This document shows, piece after piece, positions 3-59,957 of a DNA stretch of 64,000 nucleotides. Position numbers and translations under genes: made by a program. The DNA is from Treponema sp. (GTDB lineage Bacteria > Spirochaetota > Spirochaetia > Treponematales > Breznakiellaceae). The notes below the pieces were generated by a model, which was given only the letters and a program-made list of their open reading frames with translations, was not told where the DNA came from and did not search any database. Where the stretch lies: NCBI GenBank assembly GCA_009781635.1, contig WQXU01000001.1, forward strand, positions 124,001-188,000. The letters run 5' to 3'. Positions within the stretch are counted from its first letter, which is position 1. The number at the start of each line of letters is the position of its first letter.

Positions 3-3000
3 ATGAAAAATATAAAATTATTTTATTGCGGTATTGCGATTCTTTTCTGCCTTGTCCTGTTCGCTTTTTCCGGATGTCAGGAACCTCCACAAACAGGCTC
101 TGCAACTCTTATGCTAACTATAAACGGGCAGGGGCGCACTATTATGCCAAGCCAATGGCCCGATTTTATCGAATATAAACTTGAGTTCACCGCTAAAACC
201 GGCGGCAACACAAGCTTTGATGAAACCTGGAGTGAAACAACAGGCCTTGTCGATTTAGATGTTGGCACATGGGAGTTAATAATTACAGCGTTTCTTGCAG
301 GGAATATAGAAGCTGCAAAAAGCAAGACAGAAACTATAACAGTACCCTTAACAAACCCGAGTGTTAATATTGAACTTTATCCTATAGAAGAAGGCCTGGG
401 AACATTCAGCTGGGAAATTGAATTTGAAGGCAGTTTTGATACCGCGCAAATGAAGATCTTCCATATATATAATGAAACCGAAACTTTAATAGATACAATT
501 AATATTTTAGTTAATCCTGACAGTTTAATTGATGATTTGCAGGCCGGACAATACCGTGTGGTTTTTGAGTTTACAAGCGCGCAGGACAATATAAAAATTA
601 CCGAGATTTTGCATATCTACAAGGCTTTGGAAAGCTCCTATGTAAAAACTTTTTCAGATAAAATTTTTACATATACAATCGATGCGCTTATAAATTTGGC
701 GGATATAGATGAATACCTGTCACAGGCATTAAATGGCAGCTCAGCAGATGATCCTGTTAATCTTACCCTGGCTATAAATCTTGGCATTATGACAGATGCA
801 CAAAGCAACTGGCAGCAACTGCTGGATATCCTGGAAACAAGAGGCAAGTATGTATCCCTTGATCTTTCGCTATGCGGTATGGTTGGAGATACAGGTAATT
901 ATATATTCAATCCAGATCCTTCTGTCGAAACTGGAAAGGATAGAATTGTTTCGCTTATTCTGCCTGAAGTTGCAACGAGTATCCCAGATGGAGATTGGAA
1001 CGAAAATACACATGCATTCTATTATTTTGATAACTTAAAAAACATAAGCGGAAAGATTACCACCATTGGCAATAATGCTTTCTATAGCTGTACAAACCTT
1101 ACAGAACTTAACTTCCCATTAGTAACAAGTATTGGCGATGGTGCTTTCCATAGCTGTACTAGCCTTGTTGAAGCTAACTTCCCATTGGCAACAAGCATTG
1201 GCGATGAAGCCTTCCGTAACTGTACAAGCCTTGAAGATGTAAGCTTTCCATTGGTAACAAGTATTGGTAATAGTGCTATCCGTAACTGTACAAGCCTTGT
1301 AGAAGTAAGCTTCCCATTGGCAACAAGCATTGGCGATGAAGCCTTCCGTAACTGTACAAGCCTTACAGAAGTAAACTTCCCATTGGTAATAAATATTGGC
1401 AATAATACTTTCAATAACTGTACAAGCCTTACAGAAGTAAACTTCCCATTAGTAACAAGTATTGGCAATAATGCTTTCCGTAACTGTACAAGCCTAACAG
1501 AAGTTAGTTTCCCGTTAGTTACAAATATTGGTGATGAAGCTTTCCTTAGTTGTTCAAATCTTACAGAGGTAAGCTTTCCGTTGGCAACAAGTATTGGCGA
1601 TGAGGCCTTCCGTTACTGTGGAAGCCTTGTAGATGTAAGCTTCCCATTGGTAACAAGTATTGGCAATTTAGCTTTCCATTACTGTACAAGCCTTATGGAA
1701 GTAAGCTTCCCGTTGTTAACAGGTATTGATGATGAAGTCTTCCGTTACTGTACAAGCCTTGTAGAAGTAAGTTTCCCATTGGTAACAAGTATTGGTAATA
1801 ATGCATTCTTCAATACCAGCCTTGTAGAAGTAAGCTTTCCATTGGTAACTACTATTAGTGATGAAGCCTTCCGTAGCTGTGAAAGCCTTGTCGAAGTCAA
1901 CTTCCCATTGGTAACAAGTATTGGTGATAGTGCCTTCATTGACTGTACCAGCCTTGTAGAAGCAAGCTTCCCTTTGTTAACAAGTATTGGCGATTGGGCG
2001 TTCGCTTACTGCAGCCTTACAGAAGTTAATTTCCCGTTAGTAACAAGCATTGGCGATGGTGCCTTCGCTTACTGTACAAACATTACAGATATTAACTTTC
2101 CACTGGTAACAAGTATTGGTGATGTTGCGTTCGCTAACTGTACAAGCCTTGTAGAAGCAAATTTCCCGTTGGCAACAAGCATTGGTAACAGAGCTTTCGG
2201 TGTATGTACCAGCCTTATAGATGTTGATTTTCCATTGGTAACAAGTATTGGTTATGGTGCCTTCGCTGCAACCAGCCTTACAGAAGTTGATTTTCCATTG
2301 GTAACAAGTATTGGCAATGAGACCTTTTATTACTGTACCAACCTTGTTGAGGTTTATATCCCATTGGCAACAAGCATTGGCGATGAAGCTTTCCGTAACT
2401 GTACAAGCCTTACAGAAGTAAACTTCCCATTGGTAACAAATATTGGCAATAATGCTTTCAATAACTGTACAAACCTTACAGAAGTAAACTTCCCATTGGT
2501 AACAAGTATTGGTTATGGTGCCTTCGCTGCAACCAGCCTTACAGAAATTAATTTTCCTTTGATAACAAGTATTGGTGATAGTACCTTCGAAAGTTGTGCC
2601 AGCCTTACAGAAATTAATTTTCCTTTGATAACAAGTATTGGTGAAATGGCATTCGCTGGTTGCACCAGCCTTACAGAAGTTGATTTTCCATTGGTAACAA
2701 GTATTGGTTATGGTGCCTTCGCTGGTTGTATAAGCCTTGTTGAAGTTAATTTCCCATTAATAACAAGTATTGATTATAGAACCTTCGCTGGTTGCTCCAG
2801 CCTTACAGAAGTTGATTTTCCATTGGTAACAAGTATTGGTTATATTGCCTTCGCTGATTGCACCAGCCTTACAGAGGTTGATTTTCCATTTGTAACAAGT
2901 ATTGGTTATGATGCCTTCGCTGATTGCACCAGCCTTGTTAAAGTTAATTTCCCATTAATAACAAGTATTGATAATAGAACCTTCGCTGGTTGCACCAGCC

Positions 3001-3224
3001 TTACAGAAGTTGATTTTCCATTGGTAACAAGTATTGGTTATTATGCCTTCCTTAATTGCACCAGCCTTAACAGTATAACACTAGGTACGATTGCTCCTGC
3101 AAATTTTAGCGAAGATGACTCATTCCCCGGAGATTTAAGAGATGTCTATTTTTCTCCAAGCGGAGGTGCAGGAACATACACAACAGTTAATCCTGGAAGT
3201 AATCCTTCCTGGGTAAAACAGTAA
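3..3224 (+). CDS. BspA-like leucine-rich-repeat surface lipoprotein
   Basis: The 1073-residue product starts with a lipoprotein signal peptide: a charged start, a hydrophobic run and the lipobox FSGC with Cys at residue 25, so it should be lipid-anchored and exposed. Residues about 30-330 are non-repetitive. From about 340 to 1040 there are roughly 31 tandem repeats of 21-22 residues of the type TEVNFPLVTSIGDEAF followed by RNCTSL, the LRR_5 or BspA class known from T. forsythia BspA and treponemal LrrA. The DNA repeats are nearly identical 66-mers. A short non-repeat tail with PSGGAGTYTTV ends the protein. Known members bind host matrix proteins or other bacteria; that role is only inferred here. 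The ATG lies two bases from the window edge, so promoter and RBS are not visible. Confidence 0.9.
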   Translation: MKNIKLFYCGIAILFCLVLFAFSGCQEPPQTGSATLMLTINGQGRTIMPSQWPDFIEYKLEFTAKTGGNTSFDETWSETTGLVDLDVGTWELIITAFLAGNIEAAKSKTETITVPLTNPSVNIELYPIEEGLGTFSWEIEFEGSFDTAQMKIFHIYNETETLIDTINILVNPDSLIDDLQAGQYRVVFEFTSAQDNIKITEILHIYKALESSYVKTFSDKIFTYTIDALINLADIDEYLSQALNGSSADDPVNLTLAINLGIMTDAQSNWQQLLDILETRGKYVSLDLSLCGMVGDTGNYIFNPDPSVETGKDRIVSLILPEVATSIPDGDWNENTHAFYYFDNLKNISGKITTIGNNAFYSCTNLTELNFPLVTSIGDGAFHSCTSLVEANFPLATSIGDEAFRNCTSLEDVSFPLVTSIGNSAIRNCTSLVEVSFPLATSIGDEAFRNCTSLTEVNFPLVINIGNNTFNNCTSLTEVNFPLVTSIGNNAFRNCTSLTEVSFPLVTNIGDEAFLSCSNLTEVSFPLATSIGDEAFRYCGSLVDVSFPLVTSIGNLAFHYCTSLMEVSFPLLTGIDDEVFRYCTSLVEVSFPLVTSIGNNAFFNTSLVEVSFPLVTTISDEAFRSCESLVEVNFPLVTSIGDSAFIDCTSLVEASFPLLTSIGDWAFAYCSLTEVNFPLVTSIGDGAFAYCTNITDINFPLVTSIGDVAFANCTSLVEANFPLATSIGNRAFGVCTSLIDVDFPLVTSIGYGAFAATSLTEVDFPLVTSIGNETFYYCTNLVEVYIPLATSIGDEAFRNCTSLTEVNFPLVTNIGNNAFNNCTNLTEVNFPLVTSIGYGAFAATSLTEINFPLITSIGDSTFESCASLTEINFPLITSIGEMAFAGCTSLTEVDFPLVTSIGYGAFAGCISLVEVNFPLITSIDYRTFAGCSSLTEVDFPLVTSIGYIAFADCTSLTEVDFPFVTSIGYDAFADCTSLVKVNFPLITSIDNRTFAGCTSLTEVDFPLVTSIGYYAFLNCTSLNSITLGTIAPANFSEDDSFPGDLRDVYFSPSGGAGTYTTVNPGSNPSWVKQ

Positions 3225-3230
3225 TTAGAT

Positions 3231-3265
3231 AATTCCACACAGATACTCTGCCTCTGTGTGGAATT
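3231..3265. terminator. Bidirectional hairpin terminator, 13-bp perfect stem
   Basis: Bases 3231-3243 (AATTCCACACAGA) pair perfectly with 3253-3265 around a 9-base loop. The hairpin sits just after the LRR lipoprotein stop and just after the stop of the fliJ relic on the other strand, so it probably once terminated both. Exactly one arm (3253-3265) recurs at 6108-6120 after the intact fliJ, which places the island breakpoint at the loop/arm boundary. Confidence 0.75.
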
Positions 3266-3266
3266 A

Positions 3267-3329
3267 TTAAAGATTCATAATCTGTCTTGCGGAAGTTAGC
3301 TCATCAATCTGATTCATCTCACTTACAAA
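3267..3329 (-). pseudogene. fliJ 3'-end relic (20 codons plus stop)
   Basis: Read on the minus strand this encodes FVSEMNQ...QIMNL and a stop, identical in protein to the last 20 residues of the intact fliJ at 6122. The larger direct repeat is 3253-3331 against 6108-6186: 79 bp with four differences. Three fall in the coding part and are all synonymous; one is just after the stop. There is no upstream coding sequence, so it is not a gene. It marks the left border of the toxin-antitoxin cassette island and looks like the tail of a fliJ from a related lineage. Confidence 0.85.
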
Positions 3330-3349
3330 ATGAGGGGTTTTCACCGCTT

Positions 3350-3394
3350 GGTTTAACGCCTACGCAGCAGTTACCGTGCGTTATACGAAATGGC
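3350..3394 (+). other. attC-like recombination site A (short)
   Basis: The core boxes are GTTTAAC (3351-3357, fits RYYYAAC) and GTTATAC (3380-3386, close to GTTRRRY), with the extension GTTATACGAAATGGC that recurs in altered form at the three other sites. GTTTAACGC pairs with GCGTTATAC at 8 of 9 positions. The site is only about 40 bp, so it could be a truncated attC or the distal end of a lost cassette. It lies at the left border of the first toxin-antitoxin cassette. Confidence 0.55.
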
Positions 3395-3417
3395 AAAAAA
3401 TTGAGAAAAATAACCCG

Positions 3418-3446
3418 TTGACAATATATCAAAATAATGATATATT
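3418..3446 (+). promoter_or_regulatory. Promoter with embedded operator for cassette-1 TA pair
   Basis: The -35 is TTGACA (3418-3423) and the -10 is TATATT (3441-3446) with a 17-base spacer. An 8-bp inverted repeat, AATATATC (3423-3430) and GATATATT (3439-3446), overlaps the -10, as expected for an operator bound by the antitoxin. The RBS GGGGTGG lies just before the antitoxin ATG. Confidence 0.75.
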
Positions 3447-3478
3447 AAATTAACAAATAATTTTTATGGGGTGGTATT

Positions 3479-3733
3479 ATGCCAGCGATCAGGAAAAGCG
3501 CAGATTTACGCAATAATTATAGTGAAATATCAGAATTTTGCCATAATTACAGGGAACCAATATTTATTACGAAAAATGGTCAAGGGGATTTGGCTGTAAT
3601 GAGTATTGCATATTATGAAGAATTAGTTGGAAAGCTAAAATTATATCAGGCTATTCAGGTAGGTATAAATGATATTGAAAATGGAGATATAGTAACAGAA
3701 GAAGAAATGACGGAATTTATTAATAATTTATAG
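3479..3733 (+). CDS. Antitoxin, Phd/YefM family
   Basis: This 84-residue protein has the Phd/YefM fold signature: a short N-terminal DNA-binding half with EISEFCHNYREPIFITKNG, then GDLAVMSIAYYEEL, and an acidic C-terminal tail ending TEEEMTEFINNL that should wrap the toxin. In this family the antitoxin neutralises the partner toxin and represses the operon. It starts with ATG after GGGGTGG, and the toxin follows 9 bases later. The promoter carries an inverted repeat. It is clearly related to the antitoxin at 5353, so cassettes 1 and 3 share ancestry. Confidence 0.88.
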   Translation: MPAIRKSADLRNNYSEISEFCHNYREPIFITKNGQGDLAVMSIAYYEELVGKLKLYQAIQVGINDIENGDIVTEEEMTEFINNL

Positions 3734-3742
3734 GAAAAAAAA

Positions 3743-4099
3743 TTGAACCAATTAATGCACTCAAAAACAATAAAAAGTGACATAAAAGCTGCTCATAAGT
3801 ATATTAAAGAAACAATTGAAGCGCCAATGGCTGCTGATAATTTAAAAGAAGAATTATTAAAAAAATTTGAATATATAAAGGAAAACCCTTTTTCAAGGTC
3901 TTTTGTTCAGGATGCGTTTTTAGCTTCTTTAAAGGTTAGATCCATAAATTTAAAAAATTTTTCAATATTTTATAGAGTAAATGAAAACAAAGATAAAAAA
4001 TTAAAATTTAATAATATTGTTACAGCATTAAGGTTTATGTATAGCAAAAGAGATTGGCAAAATATATTAAAAGAAGATGCAATAGAAGGGATAATATAA
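3743..4099 (+). CDS. RelE/ParE-superfamily toxin
   Basis: The 118-residue basic protein follows a Phd/YefM antitoxin directly. It resembles RelE/ParE toxins in size, in the N-terminal helical part (IKSDIKAAHKYIKETIEAP), in the middle strand NFSIFYRVNEN and in the ending LRFMYSKRDWQNIL, where the RDW motif is typical of the RelE/ParE-like plasmid-stabilisation branch. The likely target is ribosome-bound mRNA or gyrase; sequence alone does not decide. The start is TTG at 3743, seven bases after AGGAAAA; an in-frame ATG at 3755 is the alternative. The attC-like site B begins five bases after the stop, a typical cassette layout. Confidence 0.85.
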   Translation: MNQLMHSKTIKSDIKAAHKYIKETIEAPMAADNLKEELLKKFEYIKENPFSRSFVQDAFLASLKVRSINLKNFSIFYRVNENKDKKLKFNNIVTALRFMYSKRDWQNILKEDAIEGII

Positions 4100-4103
4100 A
4101 AAT

Positions 4104-4184
4104 GCCACTTCGCATAACACACGATCAACGCTGAGCCTGAGGGCGACTCGGGTTCCGCCAATCTTAAACGTTAGACGAAAGTTG
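4104..4184 (+). other. attC-like recombination site B
   Basis: The left arm is GCCACTTCGCATAAC (4104-4118), the exact reverse complement of the right arm of site C. The right core is GTTAGAC (4170-4176, perfect GTTRRRY), extended as GTTAGACGAAAGTTG. Between them lies an imperfect hairpin (GAGCCTGAG against CTCGGGTTC). Length, order of boxes and internal stem match integron attC sites. The presumed cassette junctions are between G and TT at 4170/4171. Confidence 0.72.
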
Positions 4185-4286
4185 AGAGACTTCGTATATG
4201 TCTAAATAAGGATGTAAAGCGAAAGAATTCTTTTTGCCACACAGTCATTCGTCTCAGGATAGAGATCATAAAGAGGAATAAGAGAA
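4185..4286. other. Cassette-2 non-coding stretch
   Basis: This piece of cassette 2 lies between site B and the small minus-strand reading frame at 4287. I see no reading frame with a ribosome binding site, no promoter and no clear terminator in it. Confidence 0.4.
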
Positions 4287-4385
4287 TTATGCCTGTTTTT
4301 CATATTGGCGTTCACGCCAAGCAGCAAAACAACCAATGGCTAAAATTGGAAGTCCAACAATAAGCATTCCAAGAATTAAATACAT
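4287..4385 (-). CDS. Putative 32-residue single-span membrane peptide
   Basis: An ATG at 4385 follows the RBS AGGAGA at a good distance. The 32 codons encode a peptide with a hydrophobic segment over residues 2-22 (MYLILGMLIVGLPILAIG) and a basic/polar tail WREREQ-like (actual WRERQYEKQA). It lies downstream of the cassette-2 toxin and one base after the 27-residue frame, within the same attC-bounded unit. It could be a type I toxin-like or small membrane protein; no family is recognised. The good RBS is the main support. Confidence 0.45.
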   Translation of the reverse strand: MYLILGMLIVGLPILAIGCFAAWRERQYEKQA

Positions 4386-4386
4386 A

Positions 4387-4470
4387 TTATTTCTCCTGTT
4401 TTTCCAGGTTTTGTTCGCTATTTTCTTTCTTTTTTGCTCCTAAAATAAGACCAGCTATACAAAATGGCAT
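4387..4470 (-). CDS. Putative 27-residue peptide downstream of toxin
   Basis: The frame opens two bases after the stop of the cassette-2 toxin and ends one base before the ATG of the 32-residue frame. It encodes MPFCIAGLILGAKKK and then a charged tail. There is no good RBS, so translation would depend on coupling to the toxin. Its DNA also supplies the RBS of the next frame. It may be only a leader; existence as a protein is uncertain. Confidence 0.25.
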   Translation of the reverse strand: MPFCIAGLILGAKKKENSEQNLEKQEK

Positions 4471-4472
4471 TT

Positions 4473-4808
4473 TTATACTATTTTTCCATCCATTATTTTT
4501 TTATATAATATTTCCTCTAAATTTCTTCTTCCGTCTATTATGGATATAATTTCCATTTTATTATTTTCCAATTTATAGTATATTATCCAAGGACTTATAT
4601 TAAATTGATGAATATGATTTACTCCGAATTCCCTTAATAATGGAGCTATTTTTCTTCCTTCCGGATTTTCCGATATTTGTTCTACTTCATTCATTATTTT
4701 ATCATTAATTTTTTTTGCTGTAATGTTTCCAGTGTTATATTTTACATATGAAATAATATCAACAAGTTCATCTCCAGCATCTTTTGACCAAATAATTTCA
4801 TGTTTCAT
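4473..4808 (-). CDS. RelE/ParE-family toxin (cassette 2)
   Basis: This 111-residue protein has the classic RelE/ParE layout: IIWSKDAGDELVDIISYVKYN at the N terminus, KINDKIMNEVEQISENPEGRKI in the helical hairpin, GVNHIHQFNISPWIIYYKLENN in the central strand, and IISIIDGRRNLEEIL near the end, where the GRRN-type motif resembles ParE/RelE family C-terminal motifs. It is encoded downstream of its antitoxin with a 6-base gap. The gene pair runs against the cassette direction and therefore has its own promoter, a common arrangement for toxin-antitoxin cassettes. Confidence 0.88.
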   Translation of the reverse strand: MKHEIIWSKDAGDELVDIISYVKYNTGNITAKKINDKIMNEVEQISENPEGRKIAPLLREFGVNHIHQFNISPWIIYYKLENNKMEIISIIDGRRNLEEILYKKIMDGKIV

Positions 4809-4814
4809 ATTTAT

Positions 4815-5087
4815 TTAGTCCAATATTGAATTTATTTTATTTTTAACTTCATCATGGGAATAAATTCTTCCATTTTTTATATCATTTTTCCCTATGGATA
4901 AAATTTTGATTAAATTTATTGTATCAATTATATTCTGATAATAATTTACATTCATTAAAACAGCCCGAGCTTCCCCATTTTGAGTTATTACAATTGGGTT
5001 ATTTTTTTCTCCAACTTGTTTTAAAATCTCAGCGGTGTGGGATTTTACATAAGATATTGGTCTAATATCTTGTATTAAATTAATCAT
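4815..5087 (-). CDS. Antitoxin, Phd/YefM family (cassette 2)
   Basis: The 90-residue product shows a well-conserved Phd/YefM N terminus: IRPISYVKSHTAEILKQVGE, then NPIVITQNGEARAVLMNVNYY. A C-terminal tail NDIKNGRIYSHDEVKNKINSILD should bind the toxin. RBS AGGAGA precedes the ATG, and a consensus-like promoter lies about 20 bases upstream. The sequence is more distant from the cassette-1 and cassette-3 antitoxins than those are from each other, so this pair probably came from a different source. Confidence 0.9.
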   Translation of the reverse strand: MINLIQDIRPISYVKSHTAEILKQVGEKNNPIVITQNGEARAVLMNVNYYQNIIDTINLIKILSIGKNDIKNGRIYSHDEVKNKINSILD

Positions 5088-5105
5088 AAAATCTCCTATT
5101 CTTAT

Positions 5106-5134
5106 ATAATACCATATTTAGATCGTTTTGTCAA
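5106..5134 (-). promoter_or_regulatory. Promoter of cassette-2 TA pair
   Basis: On the minus strand TTGACA (5134-5129) and TATTAT (5111-5106) are separated by 17 bases. A direct repeat TAAATNTGGTATT, one copy upstream of -35 and one overlapping -10, is a candidate operator for the antitoxin complex. Confidence 0.7.
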
Positions 5135-5189
5135 TATTCAATACCAAATTTAGTCATACCTAGGTGTATACTTTTTCATACACTTTTGT

Positions 5190-5270
5190 GGCGTTTCGTG
5201 TAACGTTTAATATTGATCCCGAGGGCGCAAACAGCGCCTTCAGCGCTAACCATGTGTTATGCGAAGTGGC
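5190..5270 (+). other. attC-like recombination site C
   Basis: The left box is GTGTAAC (5198-5204) with the extension GGCGTTTC before it; the right box is GTTATGC (5256-5262), extended as GTTATGCGAAGTGGC. An internal stem pairs GGGCGC-type and GCGCC-type sequence (5222-5238). Box order, spacing of about 60 bases and shared extensions match sites B and D. It separates the minus-strand cassette 2 from the plus-strand cassette 3. Confidence 0.7.
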
Positions 5271-5298
5271 AAGAAATTTGCAAAAAAATATATTGCAA

Positions 5299-5327
5299 TT
5301 GACAATACATCAAAGAAAATGTAAAAT
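5299..5327 (+). promoter_or_regulatory. Promoter of cassette-3 TA pair
   Basis: TTGACA (5299-5304), a 17-base spacer and TAAAAT (5322-5327). The stretch from the -35 onward is homologous to the cassette-1 promoter (TTGACAATAYATCAAA shared), supporting descent of the two cassettes from one ancestor. The cassette-1 inverted repeat is only partly kept here. Confidence 0.72.
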
Positions 5328-5352
5328 TAATCAAATAATTTCTGGAGGAAAT

Positions 5353-5619
5353 ATGCCTGTCGTAAAGGAAATAACAGAATTTAAAAATTCATATTATATT
5401 ATTTCTGATTTTTGTCATAAATATAATGAACCTGTAATTATAACCAAAAACGGAGAAAGTGATATTGCTGTTATGAATATTAAAATATATGAAGAAATTA
5501 CGGGAATACGAAATTTGGTAAATTTATTGGAAGAAGCGGATAAAGATATTGAAAAAGGTAATTATTTAACAGAAGAAGAAATGGATAACAAATTAGATTT
5601 ATTGTTTAAAAATGCATAA
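5353..5619 (+). CDS. Antitoxin, Phd/YefM family (cassette 3)
   Basis: The 88-residue protein begins at the ATG at 5353, directly after GGAGGAAAT; the longer open frame upstream runs through the promoter and attC site and is not real. Signature parts are ISDFCHKYNEPVIITKNGES and DIAVMNIKIYEEI, with an acidic tail KDIEKGNYLTEEEM. It is a close relative of the antitoxin at 3479. Its end overlaps the toxin start by 8 bases, indicating translational coupling. Confidence 0.88.
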   Translation: MPVVKEITEFKNSYYIISDFCHKYNEPVIITKNGESDIAVMNIKIYEEITGIRNLVNLLEEADKDIEKGNYLTEEEMDNKLDLLFKNA

Positions 5620-5926
5620 ATTAAAATTTTCAAATTATATATATGAAGATGTGGAATCATCTATTAATTATATAAATAATGTTTTGGAAAACCCAATTGC
5701 GGCAAAAAAATTATATGAAGAAATAAAAAAGATGTATAAAAAAATAAAAATTAATCCATTTATTTATCCCAAAGTGCCAGTTGATCATTTGGCAATAAAA
5801 GGTTTTAGATTCACAATGGTAAAAAATTATATGTTATTTTTTAAAGTAAAAGAAAAAGAAATAAATGTTGAACGTTTTTTATACGGTCCAAGAGATTGGA
5901 TAAGCATATTAGAAAATACAAATTAG
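5612..5926 (+). CDS. RelE/ParE-superfamily toxin (cassette 3)
   Basis: This basic 104-residue protein matches the cassette-1 toxin in layout: IYEDVESSINYINNVLENPIA, KKMYKKIKINPF, KGFRFTMVKNYMLFFKVKE and the ending FLYGPRDWISIL with the same RDW motif. The ATG lies inside the last codons of the antitoxin. The attC-like site D starts 14 bases after the stop. The toxin target is not decided by sequence. Confidence 0.85.
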   Translation: MHKLKFSNYIYEDVESSINYINNVLENPIAAKKLYEEIKKMYKKIKINPFIYPKVPVDHLAIKGFRFTMVKNYMLFFKVKEKEINVERFLYGPRDWISILENTN

Positions 5927-5940
5927 GAAATTTACAAACC

Positions 5941-6018
5941 GCCACTTCGCTTAACACATGGTAAAAGCTGCGCCGCTTGACGGCGGCTTGGGTTACTTTA
6001 AACGATATGCGAAATGGC
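5941..6018 (+). other. attC-like recombination site D
   Basis: The left arm is GCCACTTCGCTTAAC (5941-5955), with GCTTAAC a perfect RYYYAAC box. The right box is GATATGC (6004-6010), where the invariant GTT has become GAT, so this terminal site may be inactive; it continues GAAATGGC. The internal hairpin CGCCG-CTTGA-CGGCG (5971-5985) is clear. It closes the array. The bases from 6019 to 6107 carry no feature I can name. Confidence 0.68.
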
Positions 6019-6121
6019 ATTTTTACATATTTTTATCTGATGTTATTTCTTTTTAATATTATTTGTATTTTTTATAAAAAATTAGTTGCTTTGACAATCA
6101 AGGAAATTCTGTGTGGAATTT

Positions 6122-6547
6122 TTAAAGATTCATTATCTGTCTTGCAGAAGTTAGCTCATCTATCTGATTCATCTCACTTACAAAATAATCCTTGCGGTAT
6201 TCTTCGTAGCGTTTTTCTTTTAACTTTTCTATCGCCTTTAATTCCTTGTAGGCTTCCTGGTACAAAACTCTTTTTTCTTCTACAACCATTTCCGCTTGCG
6301 CCGCTTTTTCTGCAAGCTGCTCGGCTTCCCTTTCCAGTCTTAAAATATATGTATCCCAGAAAATCATCTGCGCAGGATCATTAAAACGCTGGGAGGCTGC
6401 GTTATGCCTTTTTACGGCGGTTTGCATTATCTGCTTTTCAATTAAATTTAAGACGCTTATTGCCTGTCCAAGCGCCATTTTACATTCTTCTTCATTGAAT
6501 TTTTTAATTCTTAAAACTTTTTCAAGTTTAAAATTAAATTTTTTCAT
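6122..6547 (-). CDS. fliJ: Flagellar export chaperone FliJ
   Basis: The 141-residue, highly charged, almost fully alpha-helical protein starts MKKFNFKLEKVLRIKK and continues as a long coiled coil, as in FliJ, the soluble stalk-like component that connects the FliI ATPase ring to the FlhA export gate. It is the last gene of the flagellar block and starts 3 bases after the fliI stop. Length fits the family (about 145). The last 20 residues are duplicated as a relic at 3267. Only one arm of the original terminator hairpin survives downstream, so transcripts may run on into the cassette island. Confidence 0.9.
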   Translation of the reverse strand: MKKFNFKLEKVLRIKKFNEEECKMALGQAISVLNLIEKQIMQTAVKRHNAASQRFNDPAQMIFWDTYILRLEREAEQLAEKAAQAEMVVEEKRVLYQEAYKELKAIEKLKEKRYEEYRKDYFVSEMNQIDELTSARQIMNL

Positions 6548-34229: not shown

Positions 34230-34247
34230 CATTCAATAAATACTCTT

Positions 34248-34368
34248 AAGGTGCGGACGCAAAGGGCTGGCAGCGACATTGGCGTGAAGTCCTAGCCGGC
34301 CACACCAGAGTGTGCGTCAATCGCAGCCACGACCACAAGGAGCTGCCAGAACTTTGCGTCCGCACCTT
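34248..34368. repeat. Structured inverted-repeat element, family 1 copy (34.3 kb)
   Basis: Outer arms 34248-34264 and 34352-34368 are perfect 17-bp inverted repeats; a second 8-bp stem (CTGGCAGC/GCTGCCAG) follows after a GG/AA mismatch. The loop 34275-34341 is exactly 67 bases and aligns with the loop at 59817-59883, although most of the outer stem differs. The inner hairpin CACACCAGAGTGTG corresponds to CACGCCAAAGCGTG in the other copy, a compensatory change. No gene lies in 34230-34450. It may also end the lipoprotein transcript. Confidence 0.8.
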
Positions 34369-34450
34369 TGCATTATTTTTAGAACATTTATAACAGACGG
34401 ACTCTACTTAATGTTTAAAGCCACGAAGACTGCTCTTTATTAATATACAA

Positions 34451-52050: not shown

Positions 52051-53016
52051 TCAGTTCCCGCCGCCGTCTATTGTCTGTATCGAGCCGTCGGCATTGTATT
52101 TTAACTCTGTCACTTTAAGGCTTCTAAGCCATGTTTTGCCGCCTGAGGGAACACAGTCGTGATGAAACAAATACCACTTGCCCTTAAATTCTGTTATACA
52201 ATGATGCGTTGTCCAGCCGCAAACAGGCGTCAATACTACTCCCTGATACGTAAAAGGCCCGTATGGATTATCGCCTGTAGCATAGCAAATTAAATGAGTA
52301 TCGCCTGTTGAATATGAAAAATAATATTTACCATTATATTTATGCACCCAGGCCGCCTCAAAATACCTGCGAGCGGTATCGCCTGCGGTAATTGGGCTGC
52401 CGTCCTTATCGAGTATAACAATGGGCCTCGGATCTTCTGCAAACTGGAGCATATCATCGCTAAGTTTTGCTACCCGCGGGCAAATCGCAGGTTCATCACT
52501 TGCAGGATAGGTTGCGCCGTTTTCAAGCGCCTTATTGTCCTTGTATCTCTGAAGCTGGCCGCCCCAGATACCGCCAAAATAAAAATAATATTCGTTTTTT
52601 TCTTCAAGAATGCTGTAATCGATGCTGTAACTGCCGCGCATCGGATCCGGCTGCGGAATAAAAGGACCTTCCGGGCGGTCAGAAATGGCTACACCCGTGC
52701 GGAATACATCATTTTTATCTTTAAGCGGAAAATACAGATAATATTTACCGTTTTTATGCGCAACATCACCATCCCATAACTGGCGGCCTGCCCAGGGAAT
52801 ATCCTTAACATCGAGCGCAACGCCATGATCTGTCACTTCGCCGTTTTCTACATCATCCATAGAAAAGACATGGTAGTCTTTCATGTTGAAATGATCGCCG
52901 CTGTCATTTTCGGGTACACCGCTTTCCCAGTCGTGGGAAGGATAGATATACAACTTGCCGTTAAAAACATGGACAGAAGGGTCTGCCATGTAGTCGTTTG
53001 GTACTAAATATCTCAT
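52051..53016 (-). CDS. Glycoside hydrolase family 43 enzyme
   Basis: A five-bladed beta-propeller with the start MADPSVHVFNGKLYIYPSHD (catalytic base Asp in ADPSV), LWDGDVAHKNGKYYLYFPL, IDYSILEEKNEYYFYFGG (Asp that tunes pKa), YFEAAWVHKYNGKYYFSYS with the acid Glu in EAAW, and GWTTHHCITEFKGKWYLFHHD. GH43 members act on arabinose- or xylose-containing glycans. No signal peptide is present, so it would act on imported oligosaccharides. It lies alone, without transporter genes nearby. Confidence 0.9.
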   Translation of the reverse strand: MRYLVPNDYMADPSVHVFNGKLYIYPSHDWESGVPENDSGDHFNMKDYHVFSMDDVENGEVTDHGVALDVKDIPWAGRQLWDGDVAHKNGKYYLYFPLKDKNDVFRTGVAISDRPEGPFIPQPDPMRGSYSIDYSILEEKNEYYFYFGGIWGGQLQRYKDNKALENGATYPASDEPAICPRVAKLSDDMLQFAEDPRPIVILDKDGSPITAGDTARRYFEAAWVHKYNGKYYFSYSTGDTHLICYATGDNPYGPFTYQGVVLTPVCGWTTHHCITEFKGKWYLFHHDCVPSGGKTWLRSLKVTELKYNADGSIQTIDGGGN

Positions 53017-53076
53017 GAGCTTAAGATAGCAGGAAAAACCAATTCATGCAAGGGATAATTTTTGACCCAACTTTTC

Positions 53077-53115
53077 CGTTTTCATAGAATCCGCGGCGTT
53101 CCGGTACTCTGGGTT
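53077..53115 (+). pseudogene. 39-bp relic of an internal valS segment
   Basis: The 39 bases match 54650-54688 within valS at 35 positions and in frame would encode RFHRIRGVPVLWV against RFHRMRGVPVLWV. Three of four differences are synonymous; the fourth is Met to Ile. Matching stops abruptly at both ends. It lies between the GH43 gene and the promoter of the basic-protein module, so the module is framed by relic and real valS. Confidence 0.7.
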
Positions 53116-53141
53116 AGATTTTTTAACGTAATACGCCACCC

Positions 53142-53170
53142 TTGACAATTTTCTTAAAATGTGATATAAA
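53142..53170 (+). promoter_or_regulatory. Strong promoter of the basic-protein module
   Basis: TTGACA (53142-53147), a 17-base spacer and TATAAA (53165-53170), one mismatch from consensus. A leader of about 45 bases ends in AAAGGAGGAG before the ATG at 53222. Confidence 0.8.
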
Positions 53171-53221
53171 AGCATAACAATACTAAAAAAATTGCACTTA
53201 AAACAAAGGAGGAGTATAAAA

Positions 53222-53716
53222 ATGGCACAAAAAAAGCCGGTATCAACGACGGTTAAGAAGGTAACTAGTACAGCTAAAACCGTAGTCAAAAATGTCAAAA
53301 AAGACCCAATAGGATCAACAGCCGCAGCTGCGAAAGCCGTGGTTGGAGGAGTTACAGGCGCAGCGCAAGCCGGAATATCCAAAGTGGCAAACTCCAAGCT
53401 GCTTAAGGGCACCAAGGCGGGAACCGCTGTAGAATTGTCAAACACTTTAGTTGGTATGCCCGGGTCAGTGATAAATATTGGAATTAGCTCTCTAGCCGGA
53501 CTTGCCTCAGGTATTTATCAGGGAAAAACGATTGCGCAGCTTGAAAAAATGGTTGCCGATATTGCAGTAAAAGAAGCAAAAGGCAATGTGGATGCTGTTA
53601 TAAAACAGGCTATGGCATGTTTGCAAGTTTATGATCCATCTCTCACTTCAAAAGAAGTGGGTGATTTTTTCAAAGATTTAGGACAAAGCGCAAAGGCAAA
53701 ACTAAAGAAAGCGTAA
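53222..53716 (+). CDS. Lys/Ala-rich basic protein 1, unknown function
   Basis: The 164-residue protein begins at ATG 53222 after AAAGGAGGAG. The first 40 residues are Lys/Thr/Val-rich (KKPVSTTVKKVTSTAKTVVK), the middle is Ala/Gly/Val-rich (TAAAAKAVVGGVTGAAQAGI; PGSVINIGISSLAGLASGIY), and the C-terminal 60 residues are helical with KDLGQSAKAKLKKA at the end. No signal peptide or known domain is seen. The low-complexity basic N terminus recalls histone H1-like bacterial proteins, but the hydrophobic middle does not. Two smaller basic proteins follow. Confidence 0.75.
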   Translation: MAQKKPVSTTVKKVTSTAKTVVKNVKKDPIGSTAAAAKAVVGGVTGAAQAGISKVANSKLLKGTKAGTAVELSNTLVGMPGSVINIGISSLAGLASGIYQGKTIAQLEKMVADIAVKEAKGNVDAVIKQAMACLQVYDPSLTSKEVGDFFKDLGQSAKAKLKKA

Positions 53717-53726
53717 GGAGATTAAA

Positions 53727-53939
53727 ATGGCAAAAGCAGTATTACCGCCCAAGGGTACGGTGAAAAAGATTACGTCTAATAAGGTTTATGCAACAATACA
53801 TAAGGTTGACAAAAATGATACATCTAATAAAATAATTGCGCCGAAACATGTTGTAAAGAAAGAAACACCAGCAAATAAAAACCCTAAAGCGGCGGCGCTA
53901 ATGAAGAATGCCAAAAACGCGATCAATAAGAAAAAGTAA
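53727..53939 (+). CDS. Lys-rich basic protein 2 (70 residues)
   Basis: This small protein, MAKAVLPPKGTVKKITSNKV at the start and AAALMKNAKNAINKKK at the end, is nearly one-quarter Lys and has no hydrophobic core. It is probably disordered and nucleic-acid binding by charge alone; that is inference. The leader TAAGGAGATTAAAATG is shared with the third gene, pointing to duplication of the unit. It begins 10 bases after the first gene. Confidence 0.65.
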   Translation: MAKAVLPPKGTVKKITSNKVYATIHKVDKNDTSNKIIAPKHVVKKETPANKNPKAAALMKNAKNAINKKK

Positions 53940-53996
53940 ACATTCCTGCAGGGGCTAGCTGCCTCTGCGAGGAAAACCTGTCTTAAGGAGATTAAA

Positions 53997-54299
53997 ATGC
54001 CAAGAACAGTAACGCCGTCTAAAGCGGGTAAGGCAGTGACAAATGCCGCAAAGAAAACAGTAGCTGCAACTAAAAAAGTGGTTAATAAAGCCATAGAGAA
54101 TAAAAGAACCTATGATAAGCGTGTAGATGATATGCTGGAAGCAGACAGAAAAAAGCTTCAAAAGGATCGTGAGCTTTCGAAGGGTAAGATTGATCCGGTA
54201 ACACTGGGATATAAAACATGTTCAAAGTCCGCCAAAGGGTTAGCAATGGATCGGGCAAATAAGATACAAGCAGAAATCGACGCCGTAAAGAAAAGATAA
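53997..54299 (+). CDS. Lys/Ala-rich basic protein 3 (100 residues)
   Basis: MPRTVTPSKAGKAVTNAAKK at the start resembles gene 2; a Lys/Ala-rich stretch (KKTVAATKKVVNKAIENK) is followed by a charged helical part (DDMLEADRKKLQKDRELSKG) and ends ANKIQAEIDAVKKR. The same RBS leader as gene 2 precedes it, after a 57-base spacer with a small GCAG/CTGC hairpin (53947-53966 region). No family recognised. The three-gene set has one promoter and probably one role. Confidence 0.65.
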   Translation: MPRTVTPSKAGKAVTNAAKKTVAATKKVVNKAIENKRTYDKRVDDMLEADRKKLQKDRELSKGKIDPVTLGYKTCSKSAKGLAMDRANKIQAEIDAVKKR

Positions 54300-54404
54300 A
54301 CTTCTGCAGGTATAAGGACTATTCAGCACTTAAGAAACAGACTGCTCAAATATACATCTGCTGCATTATATAAATCTTTTAATAATATTCGCATTTTTTC
54401 TTGG

Positions 54405-54433
54405 TTGAAATAATTTTCCCAAAAAAGTATATT
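54405..54433 (+). promoter_or_regulatory. Leaderless-type promoter of valS
   Basis: TTGAAA (54405-54410), a 17-base spacer and TATATT (54428-54433), with only six bases before the ATG at 54440. No Shine-Dalgarno sequence is present, so transcription probably begins at the start codon. The remaining bases 54300-54404 show no other feature. Confidence 0.65.
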
Positions 54434-54439
54434 ACTACT

Positions 54440-57142
54440 ATGAACTCGATTGAACTTGCAAAAGCTTATGACCCAAAATCCTTTGAAGATCGCATCTATG
54501 CGCGGTGGAAGGAATCAGGCGCTTTTACTCCGGAAAATTCCGGGAATTTATGCGAAAAACCTTTTGTTATCACCATTCCTCCTCCCAATGTTACAGGTGT
54601 CCTGCACCTGGGGCATGGTTTAAATAATAGTTTACAGGACATTATTGTACGTTTTCATAGAATGCGCGGCGTTCCCGTGCTTTGGGTTCCGGGCACCGAC
54701 CATGCAGGAATCGCAACCCAAAACGTAGTTGAGCGCAAGCTGAAGGAACAGGGAAAAAGTCGCCGTGAACTTGGGCGGGAAAAGTTCCTGGAAGAAACAT
54801 GGAAGGTAAAAAACGAGCACCACGCAATTATTACAAAGCAGCTGGAAAAAATAGGAGCTAGCGTTGACTGGAACCGCGAGCGTTTTACCATGGACGAAGG
54901 GCTCTCGCGCGCGGTGCGTGAAGTTTTTGTTACTCTGTACGAGCGCGGCCTTCTTTATAAAGGCAACTACCTTGTAAACTGGTGCACTTCCTGCGGCACG
55001 GCTCTTGCGGACGATGAAGTTGAGCATGAAGATACTGCGGGAAAAATGTATCATATTCGCTATTACTTTACAGACGATAAAGATAAATATATTGAGATTG
55101 CAACAACACGCCCGGAGACCTTGTTAGGCGACACTGCTGTTGCCGTTCACCCCGAGGATGAACGTTATACTGCCTTCAAAGGCAAAACTCTTCGCCTGCC
55201 GTTAACAGAAAGAGATATACCTTTAATCTTTGACCCATATGTTGAGCGCGCTTTTGGAACAGGAGCATTAAAAGTAACTCCTGCCCACGACCCCAATGAC
55301 TGGGAACTTGGCAGAAAGCACGATCTTGCGATTATCAATATACTCAATCCCGACGGAACGTTAAACGAAAATGCGCCTGAAAAATACCGGGGGCTTTCTG
55401 TAAAAAAAGCGCGCGCTGTTGTTATAGAAGATTTAATCGCAGGCGGCTTTTATGTAAAAGATGAACCTATTAAACATTCTGTCGGACATTGTTATCGCTG
55501 CAATACTGTAATTGAACCCTTCCTCTCCGAGCAGTGGTTTGTAAAAATGAAACCACTAGCCGATAAGGCGCTTGCCTGCTGGCAAAAAGGCGAAATTGTT
55601 TTCTATCCCAAAAAATGGGAAAACACCTACAAACACTGGATGGAAAATATAAAAGACTGGTGCGTAAGCCGCCAATTATGGTGGGGACACCGTATCCCGG
55701 CATGGACTTGCGCTGAATGTACTAAGCTTACAGTTTCGCGTAACGACATCGATGTTTGCCCGCAGTGCAACAGCAAAAATATCGAGCAGGACAGCGACGT
55801 TCTTGATACATGGTTTTCCAGCTGGTTATGGCCGTTTTCAACTTTAGGCTGGGAAAAAGCCGGCGATTCTACTGCCGACCTGCAAAAATTCTACCCTACC
55901 ACTTCTCTTATTACAGCTTACGATATTATTTTCTTTTGGGTGGCAAGAATGATCATGGCTGGTCTTGAGTTTACAGGCAAGGCGCCGTTCCATGATATCT
56001 ATATTCATGGGCTTGTACGTGATAAACAGGGACGCAAAATGAGCAAGTCTCTTGGCAACGGGCTTGATCCTCTTGAACTTGTTGATGAGTTCGGCGCAGA
56101 TGCAATGAAGTTTACTCTTGCATTTATATGCGCTCAGGGACAAGACGTATTGTTAGACAAGGATTCTTTTAAACTTGGTTCCAAGTTCGCAAACAAGATT
56201 TGGAACGCAAGCCGTTATATATTGATGAATCTTGACGGCAGGGAAATGATCGAAAACCCGCAGCTGAATCCCGCAGATAAATGGATTTATTCACGTTTAA
56301 ACAGCGCGGTAAAATCAATGAACGAAGCATTCTTTTCATACCGTTATAACGATGCAGCTCAAAGCGCCTACGAATTTTTCTGGAATGATTTTTGCGACTG
56401 GTATGTAGAAGCTACAAAACTTTCCATGAAAGGCGGAAACGACTCAGATGTTCCATCCGCAGAGAAGGATCGGGCCACAACAGTGCTTTTGGATGTGTTA
56501 TCAGAATCGCTAAAGCTTCTCCACCCTCTCTTGCCGTTTGTAACAGAAGAGATTTACAGCAAATTGCCTTTAAATCAGGGAATGGGGAATGGTGAACGGG
56601 GAACCGGATTATTAATTTGCGCGCGTTATCCCCAATACGATGAGAAGCGCTGCTCCCCAATTGAAGAAAAAAACTTTTCGGCTCTTCAATCGCTTGTTGG
56701 CATGGTGCGAACTCTGCGAAGCGAATGCGGCATAACACCCGATAAAAAACTGCGGGTACTTGTCCGCGCATCAGCAGAACTGGAAACGCCTTTTAACGAA
56801 AATTCCGAACTTATTAAACTTCTTGCAAAGCTTGGCGAACTTGTCATCGAAGCGCAACTGGCCTCCCCGCTTCCAAAACCGGCAGGTTCCATAGGAATGG
56901 CGGCAGCGGGATTCGAAGTTTTTGTATTCATCGCAGAAGCTGCAGACACTGCCGCGCTTAAGAAAAAGTTTACAAACGATCTTGAAAAAGACCGCAAATA
57001 TATTGAGGGATTAAGAAGCAAACTTGCAAATCAGCAGTTTATCATGAATGCGCCTGCAGAGCTTGTTGCAGAACAAAAAGCAAAACTGGAGGAAGCGCTT
57101 TTGCGCACCGGAAAGTTTGACAGCTATTTAAGGGATTTATAA
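54440..57142 (+). CDS. valS: Valyl-tRNA synthetase
   Basis: Class I synthetase charging tRNA-Val. From ATG 54440 it has 900 residues: the HIGH-type motif NVTGVLHLGHGLNNSL, LWVPGTDHAGIATQ, the editing domain (TTRPETLLGDTAVAVHPED), WCVSRQLWWGHRIPAW, the KMSKS loop GRKMSKSLGNGLDPLE, the anticodon domain and a C-terminal coiled coil (KFTNDLEKDRKYIEGLRSKLANQQF in parts). Near 56576 a short in-frame G-rich insert encodes QGMGNGERGTG; it resembles the minisatellite units seen between other genes. The upstream ATG at 54401 would overlap the -35 box. Confidence 0.95.
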   Translation: MNSIELAKAYDPKSFEDRIYARWKESGAFTPENSGNLCEKPFVITIPPPNVTGVLHLGHGLNNSLQDIIVRFHRMRGVPVLWVPGTDHAGIATQNVVERKLKEQGKSRRELGREKFLEETWKVKNEHHAIITKQLEKIGASVDWNRERFTMDEGLSRAVREVFVTLYERGLLYKGNYLVNWCTSCGTALADDEVEHEDTAGKMYHIRYYFTDDKDKYIEIATTRPETLLGDTAVAVHPEDERYTAFKGKTLRLPLTERDIPLIFDPYVERAFGTGALKVTPAHDPNDWELGRKHDLAIINILNPDGTLNENAPEKYRGLSVKKARAVVIEDLIAGGFYVKDEPIKHSVGHCYRCNTVIEPFLSEQWFVKMKPLADKALACWQKGEIVFYPKKWENTYKHWMENIKDWCVSRQLWWGHRIPAWTCAECTKLTVSRNDIDVCPQCNSKNIEQDSDVLDTWFSSWLWPFSTLGWEKAGDSTADLQKFYPTTSLITAYDIIFFWVARMIMAGLEFTGKAPFHDIYIHGLVRDKQGRKMSKSLGNGLDPLELVDEFGADAMKFTLAFICAQGQDVLLDKDSFKLGSKFANKIWNASRYILMNLDGREMIENPQLNPADKWIYSRLNSAVKSMNEAFFSYRYNDAAQSAYEFFWNDFCDWYVEATKLSMKGGNDSDVPSAEKDRATTVLLDVLSESLKLLHPLLPFVTEEIYSKLPLNQGMGNGERGTGLLICARYPQYDEKRCSPIEEKNFSALQSLVGMVRTLRSECGITPDKKLRVLVRASAELETPFNENSELIKLLAKLGELVIEAQLASPLPKPAGSIGMAAAGFEVFVFIAEAADTAALKKKFTNDLEKDRKYIEGLRSKLANQQFIMNAPAELVAEQKAKLEEALLRTGKFDSYLRDL
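56576..56606 (+). repeat. G-rich repeat fragment inside valS
   Basis: AGGGAATGGGGAATGGTGAA and the following GGGGAACC match the units of the G-rich minisatellite arms at 9391 and 48495. The frame is kept and adds about 11 Gly-rich residues between two helices of the anticodon-binding domain. This suggests that single units can insert without their partner arm. Confidence 0.6.
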
Positions 57143-59679: not shown

Positions 59680-59756
59680 AGCCACAGCCGCCCGAAGCTG
59701 GTCACGCCAAGGAACTTTAGTTCCAGCGTGCATTAATTAAAATCACACCCACCCTG
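59680..59756. repeat. Partial copy of structured repeat family 1
   Basis: The segment GCTGGTCACGCCAA...AGCGTGCATTAATT, followed by AATCACACCC, aligns with the loop of the element at 59787. Its inner hairpin is longer: GGAACT pairs with AGTTCC inside CACGC/GCGTG. The long outer arms are missing or replaced. It lies directly after dxs. Confidence 0.6.
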
Positions 59757-59786
59757 AGATGCAATTAAATATTACTTATACAATGC

Positions 59787-59913
59787 TCCTGTGCAGGTAC
59801 GCAAAGCCCTGCCGGCGACTTCGGTGTGAAGTCGTAGCCGGTCACGCCAAAGCGTGCGTTAATTTATATCACAGCCGCCCGGAGCCGGCAGGGCTTTGCG
59901 TACCTGCACAGGA
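59787..59913. repeat. Structured inverted-repeat element, family 1 copy (59.8 kb)
   Basis: Arms 59787-59816 and 59884-59913 are a perfect 30-bp inverted repeat, followed by a T-run that could terminate the dxs transcript. The 67-base loop (59817-59883) has the same length and much of the sequence of the loop at 34275 (GTGAAGTC, TAGCCGG, GTGCGT shared) with a compensatory change in the inner hairpin. The rest of 59656-59994 holds the partial copy and the cdaA promoter, and no gene. Confidence 0.85.
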
Positions 59914-59957
59914 ATTTTTTAATTAAATTATACTAAATGCATACATTCCCGCCTTGC

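Follow-up and report, generated by a model that had tools for sequence, protein, structure and literature searches.

The question raised by this locus is how three small genes for basic proteins came to lie between a GH43 glycoside hydrolase gene and valS, why a fragment of valS lies just ahead of them, and what the encoded proteins might do. The window, by which we mean the whole 64,000-nucleotide stretch of DNA that was analyzed, spans positions 124001-188000 of contig C1 from a 2.77-Mb genome that is 99% complete, and it also contains a FlaA-like flagellar sheath gene, which points to a spirochaete. We refer to the three proteins by their lengths as P164, P70 and P100, and the features of the locus are collected in Table 1.

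Accessory DNA occupies the spacer between GH43 and valS

GH43 and valS are divergent neighbors in eight relatives from the genus (G002, G003, G006, G014, G015, G024, G033 and G036). The gap between the two genes is approximately 70-135 bp in six of them, measuring 84 bp in G002, 93 bp in G006, 102 bp in G015 and about 135 bp in G014, with G003 and G036 also short. Wider gaps are found in G024 (256 bp) and G033 (1.1 kb), and in the genome studied here the gap is 1423 bp. The left edge of the additional DNA is the conserved GCAAG of the GH43 promoter, and its right edge is the valS promoter. Comparing this spacing in relatives had been proposed in an earlier note on this DNA, which took the three genes for an accessory module bordered by a valS relic, and the comparison bears that reading out: because the spacers in relatives are mostly 70-135 bp, the empty sites show that about 1.34 kb of accessory DNA has been added between the GH43 and valS promoters, both of which are undamaged. 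Both marks of an accessory insertion that carries a scar from a neighboring gene are present here: relatives have an empty site, and part of the neighboring gene is copied at one edge.

The sequence 5' of the valS promoter differs again in G008 and G034, the sister species that are the nearest relatives: one has a gene for an ORF6N protein ahead of valS, the other a metallophosphoesterase gene. Further members of the genus carry a PemK toxin gene (G027) or a DUF488 fragment upstream of valS. With such different accessory genes in this DNA across relatives, the valS 5' flank seems to be a junction, or exchange point, that has been used repeatedly in the genus. At the locus studied here, small accessory genes without a known family have entered the spacer beside an essential gene and left what we read as a scar.

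Table 1. Features of the GH43-valS locus, in window coordinates.
Feature	Position	Strand	Evidence or remark
GH43 glycoside hydrolase	52051..53016	-	Divergent neighbor of valS; Pfam 3.8e-21; synteny
Possible remnant of duplicated valS promoter	53056..53071	+	ATAATTTT-TGA-CCCAA vs ATAATTTTCCCAA at 54410
Inserted DNA, approximate extent, between GH43 and valS promoters	53066..54400	.	Empty sites in relatives
Relic, 39-nt copy of valS codons 71-83	53077..53115	+	35/39 to 54650-54688; E 3e-7 in window
Module promoter, TTGACA-17-TATAAA	53142..53170	+	Read from sequence; 11/12 consensus positions
P164, 164 aa, basic, Gly/Ala-rich core	53222..53716	+	Full-length homologs in G593 and G595
P70, 70 aa, basic	53727..53939	+	No homolog found; codon score 0.198
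Strong intercistronic hairpin without T run (P70-P100)	53943..53974	+	-24.2 kcal/mol; z -3.5 for 61-nt stretch
P100, 100 aa, basic, long predicted helix	53997..54299	+	No homolog found; codon score 0.192
valS promoter, TTGAAA-17-TATATT, retained	54405..54433	+	Kept in G008 and G034
valS, intact	54440..57142	+	Pfam tRNA-synt_1 6e-138

The module carries its own promoter and three genes for basic proteins

The reported promoter, one mismatch from consensus, was recovered with TTGACA at 53142-53147, a 17-nt spacer and TATAAA at 53165-53170. The three open reading frames downstream also proved to be as described, encoding basic proteins of 164, 70 and 100 residues behind related leaders. These ribosome-binding leaders, AAAGGAGGAGTATAAAAATG for the P164 gene and TAAGGAGATTAAAATG for the P70 and P100 genes, provide good sites. 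Codon scores of the three frames are 0.18-0.20, against 0.225 +/- 0.06 for host genes and an average of -0.15 for alternative frames; an alternative frame within the 70-aa gene reaches 0.16. Lysine and arginine outnumber aspartate and glutamate in every case (24/10 in P164, 18/3 in P70 and 27/12 in P100), and the predicted pI values are 9.9-10.5.

Within 53714-54022, the P70 and P100 genes have in common a 28-nt leader and start, 89% identical, and similar sequence after the stop codon (CTGCAGG), as if they came from one duplicated unit. The hairpin between them could set the relative expression of both genes.

No family was found for any of the three proteins in Pfam, PHROGs, NCBIfam or PADLOC, the last giving no match to known anti-phage defense, and none of them was found in phage, viral-contig or plasmid records. 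To this extent the earlier claim that they lack a recognized family holds, but P164 has homologs and thus is not an orphan. The weak matches L002 and L003 and the IMG/VR match L093 to P70 were to long unrelated proteins or antisense frames and were discarded, and a DNA match to P100 in G038 coincides with a reading frame unrelated to P100 and was put down to composition noise. A crude test found no signal-peptide-like N-terminus or transmembrane segment, with a maximum 19-residue hydropathy of 1.47, which makes the secreted role once put forward for these proteins unlikely.

P164 represents a lineage-restricted family

A DNA search of the insert against 200 genomes of the bacterial family matched a gene in G593 (73% over 163 nt, E = 2e-20), and a profile search added a second homolog in G595; these two genomes belong to another genus of the same family. 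P164 and the G593 homolog are 42% identical over their full length, and the G595 copy is near-identical to that of G593. Identity is 44/75 across residues 28-102, 8/27 in the basic N-terminus and 16/62 in the C-terminal part, and stretches common to the family include DP-x-G, VVGGVTG, LSN-x-LVGM, GIY-x-GK and YDP. Because the G593 and G595 genes differ by 11 silent codon changes and only 1 replacement change (pN/pS about 0.03), the homolog, judged by its substitutions, is a real gene under strong purifying selection.

Consensus promoters lie directly upstream of both homologs (TTGACA/TATAGT and TTGACA/TATAAT), and genes of the P164 family have a consensus sigma-70-like promoter of their own and a strong ribosome-binding site. 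Since homologs in another genus also carry such promoters, strong expression of the module is plausible. The block of promoter plus gene is 96% conserved between G593 and G595, and the DNA on both sides of it differs. In these genomes the P164 gene stands between conserved neighbors, a gene for a 70-aa protein and yhhN, flanked in turn by variable genes; neither P70 and P100 genes nor valS sequence are present at the two loci. A prophage-like region of G593 (L111 1296-8824) that encodes a tape-measure protein and two tyrosine recombinases has its end next to yhhN and the P164 homolog.

Protein searches of 100 relatives and 393 genomes of the phylum, sets that did not include G593 and G595, returned nothing convincing for P164, and profile searches of genomes sampled from the order and the phylum added no further members. 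By these searches P164 is the founding member of a lineage-restricted family of small helical proteins that had not been described, is absent from the searched libraries and has members in three related genomes. It was found only in one bacterial family and is probably well expressed.

A relic of valS borders the module

The piece of valS ahead of the module promoter had been described as differing from valS mainly at silent sites, with the true valS following the module, and our alignment agrees. The two sequences match at 35 of 39 positions on the same strand (E = 4e-6 within the 240-kb contig), and every one of the four differences is at the third position of a codon: three are silent and one (ATG>ATC) replaces Met with Ile. 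The relic ends 26 nt 5' of the module promoter and lies inside the inserted DNA; valS codons 1-70 are missing. Its match to valS of the sister species G034 is also 35/39, equal to that with its own valS, and these two valS genes agree with each other at 34/39. Because the relic is equally close to both and matches valS of other relatives at 32/39 at most, it behaves as a valS lineage of its own, roughly as old as the sister species.

A survey of the DNA ahead of valS in 30 relatives turned up no relic. The earlier note had counted absence of the relic from relatives against its case; the empty sites nonetheless show an insertion. As the relic is missing from the relatives' loci, we read it as a local scar of the insertion and no part of the module. 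Just before it, a colinear gapped alignment picks out a weak trace (p about 0.01-0.02) of what may be a duplicated valS promoter. This trace slightly favors an imported or duplicated valS 5' end over a short templated insertion.

The fliJ region has a comparable edge and different contents

Besides intragenic repeats and one non-coding repeat, the only other relic in the 240-kb contig repeats 79 nt of the fliJ 3' end (3253-3331 versus 6108-6186, 95%). The DNA between the fliJ copies contains Phd/YefM and ParE toxin-antitoxin genes and attC-like cores at 3380, 4104, 5256, 5941 and 6004. Folded as single strands, these sites resemble attC only in part, and no integron integrase was seen near the array. 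Tentatively, the region from 3253 to 6186 looks like an integron cassette cluster. No integrons were reported in termite-gut treponemes (PMC3607928), so the habitat of the host matters for this reading.

A partial copy of a neighboring gene at the edge of accessory DNA is a real feature of both the fliJ and valS cases. The equivalence that the earlier note drew between them is not supported by their contents: the Phd/ParE pairs and attC-like repeats of the fliJ region are both absent at valS, where no attC-like core occurs between 52900 and 54500. Like integron cassettes and attC arrays, of which the fliJ region is the tentative local example (for Treponema integrons see PMC3607928), the valS module places small accessory genes next to a housekeeping gene that is partly copied at the edge. 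Unlike them it has no attC-like repeat and has its own promoter, and an integron-cassette origin was rejected because attC is missing.

Origin of the insertion

We propose that a fragment carrying the cargo and part of valS recombined at valS, using homology on one side and illegitimate joining on the other. About 1.34 kb of accessory DNA would thereby have entered the GH43-valS spacer with both promoters left intact, bringing three genes with their own near-consensus promoter. Most of the extra valS copy would then have been lost, and the 39-nt piece would be the scar that remains of a valS 5' end which came in or was duplicated. The relic fits an anchor in valS, and a donor genome with module and valS together was not found among the genomes searched. 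We consider the insertion with its scar probable. A similar process, homology-facilitated illegitimate recombination, has been modeled for effector-immunity arrays of the Vibrio cholerae type VI secretion system (PMC5361080). As in that model, foreign genes stand beside conserved sequence, partial older sequence lies at the edge and one homologous anchor is assumed; unlike those arrays, the leftover here is 39 nt of a housekeeping synthetase, the cargo is unrelated to it, and the event itself is read from sequence. The insertion is an event of a known kind, and the protein family is new to the searched libraries.

The relic might instead be a separate short templated insertion, 39 nt copied from valS during repair and unrelated to the arrival of the module. 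Its shortness, its sharp bounds and the lack of adjacent valS codons are as such an event would leave them. The position of all four differences at third codon positions, however, is more readily explained by divergence of two functional valS genes than by neutral decay following a copying event; the relic also sits within the inserted DNA, and the weak colinear promoter remnant precedes it. We regard a separate templated event as rather unlikely. It is more doubtful still that the module is a mobile unit, such as a cassette or phage satellite, with specific integration, the relic being part of its attachment site. The G593 and G595 promoter-plus-gene blocks, so alike between different flanks, and the tyrosine recombinase of the prophage-like region near the G593 homolog would suit a unit of this kind, but the valS module has no attC, recombinase or terminal repeat, the G593 and G595 loci lack valS sequence, and phage, plasmid and viral collections yielded nothing.

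What P164 might do

No significant match to any family, solved structure, phage protein or fold was obtained, the fold search with P164 included, the matches being at chance level only. AlphaFold2, given no alignment, yields an all-helical model of P164 that is poor overall (mean pLDDT 57), with fair confidence from about residue 90, and for P100 one long helix and a short one. The N-terminal helix is amphipathic in P164 (p = 0.007) and in the homolog (p < 0.001). In P164 this is significant for residues 7-27 only and not consistently so in later segments; the idea that the central part forms a long amphipathic helix was tested and gained no support from amphipathicity.

An amphipathic N-terminal helix in a protein with neither a transmembrane segment nor a signal-peptide-like N-terminus leads us to suggest, tentatively, that P164 is abundant in the cytoplasm, where this basic helix would let it dock on an anionic surface, most likely the inner membrane. 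The conserved Gly/Ala core would mediate self-association, and P70 and P100 would serve as basic accessory proteins to it. A three-part complex lacks support from co-occurrence, as the P164 homologs stand without P70 and P100. The N-terminal helix, built of small residues and Lys, resembles perilipin 4 (PMC5889406) and synuclein by physical analogy only; unlike in those proteins, the later segments of P164 are not significantly amphipathic, and there is no homology. Taken together, the explanation that combines insertion, scar and a surface-docking P164 seems to us evenly balanced between right and wrong. A bolder version is a long shot: P164 would be the first member to be described of a bacterial family of abundant proteins that coat surfaces with amphipathic helices. 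Its promoter and gene would be carried together as a portable unit between related spirochaetes, and P70 and P100 would be partners acquired along with it.

Nucleoid binding is the main rival to surface docking. The three proteins would then be nucleoid-associated and bind DNA through Lys/Ala-rich helices, with the same insertion history. Their composition and pI are those of H1-like Lys/Ala-rich nucleoid proteins, and their high Lys and Arg content, small size and strong promoter would suit such a role, as would the Lys-rich P70, which is predicted to be little structured. Unlike in H1-like proteins, conservation in P164 is greatest in the Gly/Ala core and not in the basic ends or tail; the N-terminus of the homolog alternates Glu and Lys (AAEAAKK), unlike H1-type tails, and neither a sequence match to such proteins nor a match to a DNA-binding family was found. 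We judge nucleoid binding unlikely. A small toxin-antitoxin or bacteriocin-immunity set would be in keeping with small basic accessory genes at a site where relatives hold toxin-antitoxin-type genes (PemK in G027), but the lack of PADLOC, Pfam and NCBIfam matches, the strong constitutive-looking promoter and the absence of a partner gene in G593 and G595 make this highly improbable. Of these readings we prefer surface docking by P164.

Other repeats in the window and contig

G+C-rich repeats with inverted ends, 72-89% alike and without an Rfam match, occur at 34232-34384 and 59725-59926. A long protein gene at 3-3224 of the window, with many 22-residue repeats that look BspA-like by eye, borders the fliJ relic. 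Outside the window, contig C1 holds a 113-nt non-coding repeat (L094 1037-1149 and 5267-5379; 88% identical) with hairpin-like arms, which may be a structured RNA or a terminator element.
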